The notes under the pieces were generated by a model that worked only from the letters and a program-made list of their open reading frames with translations, searched no databases and was not told where the DNA came from. 21,088 bases of DNA, taken from the IMG/VR virus record IMGVR_UViG_3300023196_001718, positions 1 through 21,088 of that record; one strand, written 5' to 3'. A program made the position numbers and the translations under genes. This document shows, one piece after another, positions 1,893-20,112 of the stretch (within the stretch, counting starts at the first letter, position 1; each line of letters opens with the position of its first letter). The stretch is from a virus.

Positions 1893-1923
1893 TTGGATAA
1901 GTCATTTATTTGTTTTATATTTG
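1893..1923 (+). promoter_or_regulatory. Promoter P1 (Bacteroidota type)
   Basis: TTGG at 1893-1896, 19 nt spacer, then TATATTTG at 1916-1923, an exact TAnnTTTG -7 box. The spacer shares TTATTTGTTTTAT with promoter P2. A transcript would start near 1928-1930, at the first paired bases of the structured RNA. Confidence 0.75.
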
Positions 1924-1927
1924 CATC

Positions 1928-2124
1928 TGGTTGTTAGTCCTCCAAGTATTACCACAAGGGTAGTTTAAATTGAGCTTGGGGGCGGCCTATAACTTCAGTA
2001 ACCTAATGAAAGGAGGAAGACTGTTGGAACAGGTAAATATTCTTTTAAGAATATGAGAACAACAAAAACATTTATAGGAATTATGGAATGTTTTACTGGT
2101 GTATGAAACTTACAGCAGTTTTTT
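1928..2124 (+). ncRNA. Candidate structured RNA, about 200 nt
   Basis: No credible ORF fills this stretch, yet it has its own promoter (1893-1923) and ends in an intrinsic terminator (2095-2124). Pairings visible by eye: CCTCCAAG (1939-1946) with CTTGGGGG (1975-1982), 8 bp enclosing a 6-bp hairpin (1948-1953 with 1959-1964, loop ACAAG); the alternative AGTC (1936-1939) with GACT (2019-2022) plus CTCC (1940-1943) with GGAG (2012-2015); CTG (1927-1929) with CAG (2030-2032); and a perfect 7-bp hairpin 2037-2043 with 2048-2054. Known riboswitches, tmRNA, 6S, SRP and self-cleaving ribozymes were considered, and no consensus core was recognised. It could act as a phage small RNA or as a leader controlling the 55-aa gene downstream. 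Confidence 0.55.
2095..2124 (+). terminator. Intrinsic terminator ending the structured RNA
   Basis: ACTGGTGTA (2095-2103) faces TACAGCAGT (2111-2119): eight pairs with one G-G mismatch and a 7-nt loop, followed by TTTTT (2120-2124). Confidence 0.6.
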
Positions 2125-2196: not shown

Positions 2197-2364
2197 ATGA
2201 AAGCAGATAATAAAGTGTTAGGAGAATTTAGTGAGGTATTAAGGAAATTATTTAATCCAGATTTAAGTGATATATATGAACTAATAGAGAAGCATCCAAT
2301 TAAAGATGAAAAGAAAGTATATACATGGAATATAAAAGGGAAAGAAATAAAAGGTAAGGGGTAG
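2197..2364 (+). CDS. Small charged protein, 55 aa
   Basis: The ORF runs from ATG 2197 to TAG 2362-2364. The product begins MKADNKVLGEFSEVLRKLFN and continues with an acidic/aromatic segment (PDLSDIYELIEKHPIKDEKK) and a lysine/glycine-rich tail (KGKEIKGKG). It is probably helical, soluble and without cysteine. The start is preceded by an A-rich leader (AAATAAGAAT), usual for this window. It is the only sizeable ORF in the P1 unit and can be reached only by reading through the hairpins at 2095-2124 and 2151-2172, so its expression may depend on the upstream RNA. The stop codon lies inside the loop of the terminator hairpin at 2356-2373. No family is recognised. Confidence 0.5.
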   Translation: MKADNKVLGEFSEVLRKLFNPDLSDIYELIEKHPIKDEKKVYTWNIKGKEIKGKG

Positions 2365-3263: not shown

Positions 3264-3459
3264 CACAGAGGAAGAACAGAGGCAGGCTATTTATATTAGC
3301 AAACTAGAAGAAGCTATAGAGGAGTATAATAACTTAACTCTTAAAGAAGATAGAAGATATATAATAGAAGTAGCTAATGTAATAGCTAAAAACAAAGAAC
3401 ACGGCTTTACTAAGGCTGAATTAAAAGAAATAAATAAACAACTAATAGAATTAATATAA
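3250..3459 (+). CDS. Hypothetical helical protein, 69 aa
   Basis: A small acidic protein with almost no Cys, Trp or Gly, dominated by Glu, Lys, Ile and Asn. The first half (TEEEQRQAIYISKLEEAIEE) and the last part (TKAELKEINKQLIELI) look like amphipathic helices with heptad-like spacing, so a helical hairpin or coiled-coil dimer is plausible. There is no signal peptide or membrane segment. It starts inside the HU-like gene (14-nt overlap) and ends in a TAATG overlap with the GroES-like gene, so all three are likely co-translated. Function is unknown. A structural adaptor or chaperone role would fit the surroundings but is not shown. Confidence 0.7.
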   Translation: MDYYNTEEEQRQAIYISKLEEAIEEYNNLTLKEDRRYIIEVANVIAKNKEHGFTKAELKEINKQLIELI

Positions 3460-3743
3460 TGAATAAATTAGAATGTATAGGAGATAATATCATGTTTGAA
3501 TTGCCTGATATTGAAGAAAGAACTGAAGGGGGTATTATTAAACCTGAAGAAGTAATTATAGACGAAGCAGCCAAGCAAGAAGACTTAGAAATTGTAAAAA
3601 TTATTTCTGTAGGTAAAAATGTTAAAACAGTAAAGATAGGAGACAGCATCTTTTTATCTTCGCCTAGAGTAGCTATTTACACCTTTGAAGGTAAGCGTTA
3701 TGGAGGCATTAAAGAATATGATATATTTGCTAAAGTAGTATAA
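3459..3743 (+). CDS. GroES-like co-chaperonin (Cpn10 family), 94 aa
   Basis: The protein follows the Cpn10 layout along its whole length and is about the family size (95-100 aa). Near the N-terminus GDNIMFELPD (8-17) replaces the usual RVLVKP strand. ERTEGGIIKPEE (20-31) is the mobile loop with the GGI hydrophobic triplet that contacts the chaperonin. VGKNVKTVKIGDSIFL (51-66) matches the VG.G....V..GD.VLF core, and YGGIKEYDIFAKV (81-93) matches the conserved C-terminal Y.I..E.DIL..V. No GroEL gene is in the window, so it presumably works with the host chaperonin, as T4 gp31 does in capsid protein folding. It is joined to both neighbours by TAATG overlaps and lies just ahead of the terminase genes. 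Confidence 0.85.
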   Translation: MNKLECIGDNIMFELPDIEERTEGGIIKPEEVIIDEAAKQEDLEIVKIISVGKNVKTVKIGDSIFLSSPRVAIYTFEGKRYGGIKEYDIFAKVV

Positions 3744-4279: not shown

Positions 4280-4509
4280 TGACTGCAAAAATGTATTTAA
4301 TGTTGGTAGACCCTGAAAACGCAGAGTTTGGAGAGGCCCCAGAATTGGAAAAGAAAATAACAGATTTCGTATTTGACTCACTTAAAGTGACAGGTATATA
4401 TAAACAAGATGAAGAGATAATGCTTATCTTTTTAAACGGTGTTGATATACCTTTAGTATATGATGAGTATACTTATGAATGTATAGCTGAAACATTAAGA
4501 GATAAATAA
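4279..4509 (+). CDS. Hypothetical acidic protein, 76 aa
   Basis: A small acidic protein (MTAKMYLMLVDPENAEFGEA...) sits between the probable small terminase and TerL, with TAATG overlaps at both ends. It shows a strand-like start (KMYLMLVD), a helix (PELEKKITDFVFDSLKVTGI), a strand pair around EEIMLIFLNGVDIPLVYDEY and a short terminal helix, so a compact alpha/beta fold is likely. There is no membrane segment and no known motif. Its place suggests a role in packaging, or that it is a translational spacer that couples TerL synthesis to the upstream genes. I do not recognise the family. Confidence 0.7.
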   Translation: MTAKMYLMLVDPENAEFGEAPELEKKITDFVFDSLKVTGIYKQDEEIMLIFLNGVDIPLVYDEYTYECIAETLRDK

Positions 4510-18226: not shown

Positions 18227-20112
18227 TGAAGATAGTTGGAAACTTATATAAACCACTTGAATTTGAGATTCCTAATCTTATAGACCCTCTATTCAAAATG
18301 ACTATTGATACTACCCAAGCAGGTAGTGCTTCAGATACATTTATTTTACGTTTAGGAAACGGAGCTACTAATATGACTGTATATTGGGGTGATGGAAATA
18401 GTGATGTAATAACTGCATATAACCAAGCAGAATTAACACATGTCTATGCTTCAAGTGGTAGTTATCAAATTAGCTTAAGTGGTTCTTTTGTAGGTATTGC
18501 TTATGGTAATCTTGGGGATAAATTAAAAGTATCTTCAATAGATAATTGGGGTACTAACCAATGGACAAGTATGAATGGTGCATTTAGAGGTTGTACTAAT
18601 CTAGTTGCTAATTATAGTGACTCACCCGATACTTCATTATGTAGTGTTATGGCTTACGCATTTGCTTTTTGTCCAAATTTTAATGGAGCAGTTAATTTTG
18701 ATACAACTAGTGTAACAAGTATGAGTAATATGTTTAATACTTGCACAGTATTTAATCAGCCTATAACATTTGATACACAAAGTGTAACTACAATGGATTT
18801 AATGTTTAGGAGATGTGATGCGTTTGACCAAACTATTAATTTTGACGGAAGCGCATTAACCAATGCTTACCAAATGTTTATGATGTGTTCAGCATTTAAC
18901 AGTTCTGTCACCATTACTAACTCTACTCTTTTAACAAATTGTGGATATATGTTCTATCAATGTTTGGTATTGGATGCACCTATTGAGATAAATACTACAA
19001 GTTGTACTCGTATGGATTATATGTTTCAACAATGTTGGGTATTTAATTCTTCAATAACTTTTAATGGTGGTACGGGTTCTGTAACCAATATGTCTAGAAT
19101 GTTCTATGATTGTCCTTTATTCAATCAGCCTATAACAGCTATAAATGATACATCAAGTGTTACTAATATGTCCTCAATGTTTGAGCATTGCCGCAAGTTC
19201 AACCAAACTGTTGCATTTGATACATCTATTGTAACTACTATGAGTGCAATGTTTAGTAATTGTAGGGAGTTTAATCAACCTATAACATTTAATGCTCCGT
19301 TAGTTGCTAATATGTATGTAACATTTAATGCTTGTTGGCTTTTAGACCAACCAATTAGTTTAACAACTACATCAGCATTAACAAGTTTATATTTAACATT
19401 CCAAGATTGCTTCGTGTTAAACAGTTCTGTTACTATTAGTGATACTTCGGGAGTAACTACTATGAGAGGAATGTTCTTTGATTGTCTTTTGTTTAACCAA
19501 CCATTAACATTTGATACAACATCTTGTACCAATATGCAGGATATGTTTAGAGCTTGTGCAGTTTTCAATAGCACTCTTAGTTTAAGTGATACTTCTCTTG
19601 TTACTACAATGGGTCAAATGTTTAGTGGTTGCTTAGTATTCAATCAACCTATTAATTTTAATACTTCAAGTGTTGGTGTAAGTGGATTTATTGCAATGTT
19701 TTATAACTGTAGAAAGTTTAACCAACCAATAGCATTTACTACACCTCTATTATCGGGGTTATTAAATTCAATGTTCAATAATTGTTTTGAATTTAATTCA
19801 ACCATATCATTATCTGATACATCAAATGTAACAAGTATGTCCACAATGTTTTATAATTGTTTCCTATTTGACCAAGATATTAGTGCATTTCAAATAAATT
19901 CTCTGACTAATGCAAGTCAAATGTTTCAATTTTCAGCATTAAGTAAGGTTAACTATGACCCACTATTAGTAGCTTGGGAAGCATACGGAACAAATAATGT
20001 TACACTCCACGCAGGAACAGCTCACTATTCAGCAGGTGCTCCAACAACAGCACATGATGCCTTAACAAGTGTAGGAAGGGGATGGACAATAACTGATGGA
20101 GGTACACCTTAA
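18226..20112 (+). CDS. Large repeat adhesin (PKD-like plus BspA/DUF285 repeats), 628 aa
   Basis: The start is GTG 18226 within a TAGTG overlap. Residues 25-90 look like a PKD/immunoglobulin-like domain (VYWGDGNSDVITAYNQAELT then HVYASSGSYQISLSG). About 18 repeats of roughly 24 residues follow, with consensus T-S-x-V-T-x-M-x-x-M-F-x-x-C-x-x-F-N-Q-P-I-x-F-D, the DUF285/BspA leucine-rich-type repeat. The MFxxC cysteine recurs in nearly every repeat, giving a ladder of about 17 Cys. The last 30 residues (GRGWTITDGGTP) close the domain. BspA-type repeats act in adhesion, so receptor binding or fibre function is inferred. There is no signal peptide. Confidence 0.9.
   Translation: MKIVGNLYKPLEFEIPNLIDPLFKMTIDTTQAGSASDTFILRLGNGATNMTVYWGDGNSDVITAYNQAELTHVYASSGSYQISLSGSFVGIAYGNLGDKLKVSSIDNWGTNQWTSMNGAFRGCTNLVANYSDSPDTSLCSVMAYAFAFCPNFNGAVNFDTTSVTSMSNMFNTCTVFNQPITFDTQSVTTMDLMFRRCDAFDQTINFDGSALTNAYQMFMMCSAFNSSVTITNSTLLTNCGYMFYQCLVLDAPIEINTTSCTRMDYMFQQCWVFNSSITFNGGTGSVTNMSRMFYDCPLFNQPITAINDTSSVTNMSSMFEHCRKFNQTVAFDTSIVTTMSAMFSNCREFNQPITFNAPLVANMYVTFNACWLLDQPISLTTTSALTSLYLTFQDCFVLNSSVTISDTSGVTTMRGMFFDCLLFNQPLTFDTTSCTNMQDMFRACAVFNSTLSLSDTSLVTTMGQMFSGCLVFNQPINFNTSSVGVSGFIAMFYNCRKFNQPIAFTTPLLSGLLNSMFNNCFEFNSTISLSDTSNVTSMSTMFYNCFLFDQDISAFQINSLTNASQMFQFSALSKVNYDPLLVAWEAYGTNNVTLHAGTAHYSAGAPTTAHDALTSVGRGWTITDGGTP

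Follow-up and report, generated by a model that had tools for sequence, protein, structure and literature searches.

The question raised by this locus is what kind of RNA a phage makes from a host-type promoter that is followed by a structured region without a conserved ORF. The locus belongs to G000, an IMG/VR record of 21,088 bases which was analysed over its whole length and is called the window here. The large terminase of the window is 45% identical to that of Cellulophaga phage phi14:2 (Crassvirales, Steigviridae), which identifies the window as a genome fragment from a crAss-like phage. Up to ~1317 the genes are on the minus strand, from 1572 onwards the plus strand carries the structural arm, and the RNA gene sits in this divergent region. 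A preliminary description had proposed a promoter-driven, non-coding and structured RNA of no known class, and this proposal was upheld by the blank Rfam result, by covariation and by the absence of a conserved ORF, as presented below. Two neighbouring features were also observed. The long non-coding divergent region at 1318–1560 carries AAATTTTTTT-N-GGGG blocks repeated at 1481–1500 and 1523–1542, together with inverted repeats, and may form another structured or origin-like element; the structural arm contains a gene for a GroES-like co-chaperonin (3459–3743; phrog_3188, E 8e-8).

Promoter, extent and coding content

The TAnnTTTG box that had been taken as the promoter is present as an exact TATATTTG at 1916–1923 on the plus strand, and the full element is a 54-nt repeat at 1870–1923 that ends in this box. 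The 54-nt element recurs upstream of two neighbouring genes, at 1543–1596 (65%) and 2404–2457 (80%), and all three diverged copies in the window end in TAnnTTTG. Boxes of this type are by themselves no commoner in the window than expected by chance (24 found and 31 expected). Related copies of the element were seen in crAss001 at 626–660 and 1604–1660, the latter directly before its tRNA array. The housekeeping promoter of Bacteroidota has a −7 box of the form TTTG/TAnnTTTG (PMC6847099, PMC9723704), which the −7 box of the window matches exactly, whereas the upstream part in the window is the phage-specific 54-nt repeat. Because published mapping places the box at −12 to −5 relative to the transcript start (PMC9723704), the RNA is predicted to start near 1928. 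Its 3′ end was set by the end of conserved structure, giving a structured non-coding RNA on the plus strand from ~1928 to 2166 (to ~2172), and the coordinates of the whole unit should be about 1870–2172. Hence the length of ~200 nt given previously was too short, since conserved structure continues to ~2166 and the RNA measures ~240 nt.

Relatives of the window were gathered via the terminase, and the identity over the RNA region was 100% for L003, 92% for L004 and ~77% over the central part for L005 and L006. Comparison with L004–L006 confirmed that the RNA region holds no ORF, because stops are present in all frames or frames are shifted in these relatives, and no small protein gene is kept among them. 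A short ORF in the core, MKGGRLLEQVNILLRI, was considered and rejected, as it is not conserved and has no start codon in L004. The first downstream ORF (2197–2364, plus strand, 55 aa) is not conserved among the relatives of the window either, and a hairpin with a T-run at 2356–2373 overlaps its end. The predicted folding energy of 1927–2124 is lower than that of shuffled sequences (z = −2.7; 2 of 200 shuffles as good), and that of 1929–2172 is similar in this respect (z = −2.5; 1 of 200 shuffles as good).

Helices of the window's subfamily

The window belongs to a subfamily of eight loci, and the parts downstream of the core are common to L004, L005, L006, L046, L086, L198 and L202. The three stems listed in the preliminary description (1939–1946/1975–1982, 1948–1953/1959–1964 and 2037–2043/2048–2054) are exact, and the hairpins formed by them, P0 and P3, are kept with changed bases in relatives. 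P0 (1939–1982, plus strand as for all features below; the first of these stems is its outer stem and the second its inner stem) is restricted to the window, L004, L005 and L006, which are closest to one another and among which its pairs covary. In L046, L086, L198 and L202, P0 is absent and the core follows the promoter directly. The core itself (1992–2035) consists of ACUUCAGU, a loop with a CC/GG inner stem, and ACUGUUGGAACAGGUA, with the stem P2 formed by 1996–1999 and 2020–2023; the preliminary description was right about the stems on both sides and overlooked this segment, which is the core of a widespread family.

Downstream of the core, three further hairpins covary in the subfamily, in agreement with the expectation that relatives of the window would show covariation. 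For P3 (2037–2054, loop UUUUAA), 33 of 35 pairs are kept in seven relatives. For P4 (2067–2092, paired as 2067–2072/2087–2092, with a conserved GG-N-GG in the loop), 34 of 35 are kept with six different helix sequences, and for P6 (2139–2166, paired as 2139–2143/2162–2166, with the G-rich loop AGGGGAGA, GGGGAG-like among relatives), 35 of 35 are kept with six of the seven helix sequences different. The helix arms thus differ among relatives yet remain complementary, and swapping arms between relatives destroys the pairing: only 8 of 5040 permutations were as good for P3, and 2 of 5040 for each of P4 and P6, in a test for which the arms were placed by eye beside conserved landmarks and which is therefore not blind. 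An automatic consensus fold from a plain alignment recovered the core, P4 and P5, and did not recover P3 and P6.

The hairpin P5 (2095–2119) and the U-run behind it had been read as a rho-independent terminator at 2095–2124. The hairpin is conserved in all eight relatives and the U-run is not, being broken in L005 (UCUUUUGG), L086 (UCGUUUU) and L202 (UUUGUGG), and a terminator scan did not list 2095–2124. Because the U-run is not conserved and the structure continues to ~2166, P5 is probably an internal stem. The segment at 2119–2134 combines the U-run with a conserved GGCGACAAU (GGYGA in most relatives), and the U-run may pair with 1985–1992 in a putative closing helix P1. The arm-swap result for this helix was not significant (417 of 5000), and a role of the U-run in it is a possibility. 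In L086, a TATATTTG box stands right after the P6 hairpin, and the start predicted from this box falls on the ATG of the gene that follows, which is possibly expressed as a leaderless mRNA.

Distribution of the core and comparison with known classes

We scanned IMG/VR with two core patterns and one pattern for a long-loop form, and obtained 49 sequence clusters of noncoding matches to the core hairpin, ACUUCANU-loop-N′UGUUGGANCAGNUA; clusters were built by shared 8-mers, gene calls were simple ORF calls, and most records are contig fragments. Matches located in a long stop-free frame were classed as coding (40) and the others as noncoding (76). The bases at the free position of the pattern can pair in all 76 noncoding matches, part of which are partly constrained because the first pattern limited these bases to purine and pyrimidine, and in 22 of the 40 coding matches, a class that was split off by frame length alone and may hold a few true members. 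These ~40 matches in long stop-free frames were set aside as mostly chance matches in coding sequence. When 59 members were aligned with a model, the variable stem pair was AU in 32, GC in 19, CG in 3, GU in 3 and UA in 2, so that none is unpaired (59/59); the pair next to it is UA (48) or UG (10). Covariation scored 0.209, higher than in any of 500 shuffles (0/500), and slid versions reached at most 0.064. Moreover, the U-G and G-U pairs would be A-C on the other strand, which fixes the strand of the RNA, and the promoter also sets it.

Conserved single-stranded sequences flank the core, with ACUU before and UUGGAWCAGRUA after it. The 30-nt core is also present in more distant relatives of the window, and it lies near the RNA 5′ end in nearly all members, usually starting 8–75 nt past the promoter box. 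The sequence before the core was long enough for a promoter search in 47 clusters, and in 35 of these a TAnnTTTG box stands no more than 120 nt upstream of the core, compared with 4.4 expected from shuffles. The 3′ part is lineage-specific. The siphovirus-like form of ~155 nt comprises the promoter, a GUAG...CUAC hairpin, the core, a hairpin, a G-run and a nearly invariant pyrimidine tract, at the end of which conservation stops abruptly. In the L128/L130 group this tract is CTTTTTCTTTTCTTTCTTTTT, with nearly invariant C positions, a pattern that makes sequence-specific binding to it likely. Other crAss-like phages (L013, L015 and L023) have a third type of 3′ part. In L063, L068 and L072, a region of ~150 nt downstream of the core shares motifs, differs from the window type and looks like another structured 3′ domain.

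The core was found in crAss-like phages and in unrelated siphovirus-like phages, thus the family occurs in at least two unrelated virus groups, which probably all infect Bacteroidota, a host assignment that we infer from the promoter type and the phage relatives. No protein common to all carriers tested was found; eight protein clusters unite seven crAss-like carriers, and a different set unites four siphovirus-like ones. Nearly every contig checked, including all of those >90 kb, has one clear copy of the RNA, and G008 has two. Among isolated phages, no core was found by blastn, and phi14:2 and crAss001 gave only chance-level model matches. The four pattern matches in GTDB were a phage-like contig (L093), a chromosome-like contig of Bacteroidetes (L091) and two apparent chance matches. 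Within the order of L091, 2 of 296 genomes had a match, one of them false, and the core is otherwise all but absent from bacterial genomes. In L091, a contig of a Bacteroidetes single-cell genome, the core RNA (4306–4365, minus strand) lies between host-type genes near tRNA-His, and an ORF reading like a tyrosine recombinase is 1.7 kb away; this copy is perhaps a remnant of an integrated element.

Comparison with known classes gave no match. Rfam 15 returned no hit in the window at curated thresholds, the best sub-threshold matches reaching 17.7 and 15.6 bits where 52 and 75 are required; only a tRNA was found in 14 related loci, and ARAGORN found no tRNA or tmRNA fold in the window. GOLLD and ROOL resemble the present RNA in being phage- and prophage-encoded, structured, non-coding and of unknown function, and no protein partner of ROOL is known (PMC12286853). 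However, GOLLD is much larger (many >800 nt), GOLLD and ROOL are often near tRNA islands, and their Rfam models have no match in the window or the 14 related loci. Our literature search found no paper on the RNA family, which does not prove that none exists. The best reading is that this is a new, previously unlisted family of phage RNAs.

Possible functions of the RNA

A host-type promoter, a defined structure and strand, the absence of an ORF and, in part of the family, stand-alone placement are features that can be read from the sequences. For the function, our proposal, whose chances we put at about even, is that the RNA of the window and the other members of this new non-coding phage family act in trans, with a host factor as their target. 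According to this model, host RNA polymerase would make the RNA during infection, the RNA would act as a separate molecule, its core would bind a host factor (RNA polymerase, the ribosome or an RNA-binding protein), and the 3′ part, that is the G-rich P6 loop in the window and the pyrimidine tract in siphovirus-like phages, may serve as a second contact or tail. The model is supported by the single copy, the variable first downstream gene, the separate promoter copy of the next operon in the window and L006, and the lack of a common protein in unrelated groups; a host partner is suggested by the fact that no phage protein which could serve is common to the carriers. It is doubtful, though conceivable, that the RNA is a portable module passed among unrelated Bacteroidota phages to take over RNA polymerase or the ribosome without a phage protein. 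A possible lead in this direction is the conserved single-stranded UUGGAWCA, which resembles the UGGAWCA that immediately precedes the anti-Shine-Dalgarno in the 3′-terminal part of 16S rRNA. A search of the pyrimidine-tract subfamily for antisense targets was negative, since the complementarity of the tract to translation starts of the phages did not exceed that of a reversed control, which counts against the trans-acting model.

The genomic context bears on the trans-acting model and on a second explanation, in which the nascent core would change how the downstream operon is terminated or translated. The put RNA of phage HK022, short and structured, is located close to the start of a phage transcript and needs no phage protein, and put sites act in cis on downstream operons. 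This likeness, drawn from descriptions and not from sequence, fits the leader explanation, as do the position of the core 8–75 nt after the promoter box in most members, which would suit a cis-acting element of nascent RNA and to that extent weakens the trans-acting model, and the terminator-like hairpins or U-tracts often located between the core and the first gene. In 29 of the 44 clusters with a scorable downstream side, the gene that comes first behind the RNA shares its strand, and a co-directional operon begins with the RNA in the window and in most crAss-like phages. In the other 15 clusters, however, an antisense gene comes first and there is no sense gene to lead, so the RNA is stand-alone in about one-third of the scorable clusters, as the sharp end of conservation in the siphovirus-like group also suggests. 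The siphovirus-like RNA is antisense to genes on both sides, with a holin-like gene on one and a peptidase M15/ERF/SSB-like/AAA module on the other, and in G003 it is antisense inside the right arm. The description of the unit as self-contained is borne out best by related phages in which no sense gene follows; in the window an operon of the same direction stands behind the RNA. The suggested switching role found no support. Moreover, put RNAs would precede an operon in cis in all carriers and riboswitches would lie upstream of functionally related genes, whereas the genes downstream of this RNA are diverse or antisense and each genome has one copy despite the many operons of these phages. We therefore regard a leader, of the put or riboswitch type, as unlikely though still a serious contender.

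A third explanation, which we hold to be unlikely though it keeps real weight, is that the RNA serves a replication origin as a primer or as an R-loop transcript. The replication primer RNA II of ColE1 is a promoter-driven structured RNA with a G-rich stretch near the origin, and the present RNA is comparable in its promoter, structure and G-rich stretch, with the difference that a putative origin here is placed by GC skew alone, that no initiator or RNase H dependence is known and that G-runs are not universal. The distance between the RNA and the cumulative GC-skew minimum is at most 3.7 kb in each of the 14 contigs with two gene arms, and at most 1.5 kb in 11 of these (using the raw skew minimum for G001); the siphovirus-like RNA adjoins ERF/SSB-like/ATPase replication genes; and of 46 clusters, 15 have GGGGG in the stretch of 200 nt that follows the core, compared with 4.4 expected. 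On the other hand, the gene arms diverge at the same place as the skew minimum, so that its location does not by itself prove an origin and replication and transcription are inseparable there. Most unidirectional phages of 30–37 kb carry the RNA at a long distance from any extreme of the skew, and the RNA of G003 is 3 kb from the minimum and faces against the right arm. G-runs of at least four are absent from about half of the clusters; a Shine-Dalgarno-like or G-rich element is enriched and not universal across clusters. An RNase H gene was observed in G003 (19003–19464), ~1 kb from the RNA. The location at the skew minimum, and the fact that hairpins fold in single-stranded DNA too, would equally suit an element working as folded DNA, for example a priming or packaging site whose transcription is incidental; this is very improbable given the correctly oriented promoter before 35 of 47 clusters and the wobbles at the outer-stem variable pairs, which occur only in the RNA sense (U-G 10, G-U 3, A-C 0). 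The unenriched boxes of the window would suit a chance meeting of functionless parts, with a site that merely looks like a promoter, a terminator-like hairpin and an AT-rich spacer between them, and conservation and covariation over many phages refute this for practical purposes.

Few conserved RNAs are carried by unrelated phages, and this one is present in crAss-like phages, a very abundant group, outside the known RNA families. With its core, strand, promoter, covarying helices and 49 clusters, the family is defined enough for RNA databases and for testing. Because its carriers share no protein, the partner of the trans-acting RNA that we favour is probably a host factor, and such a target would be searchable by pull-down in Bacteroidota.
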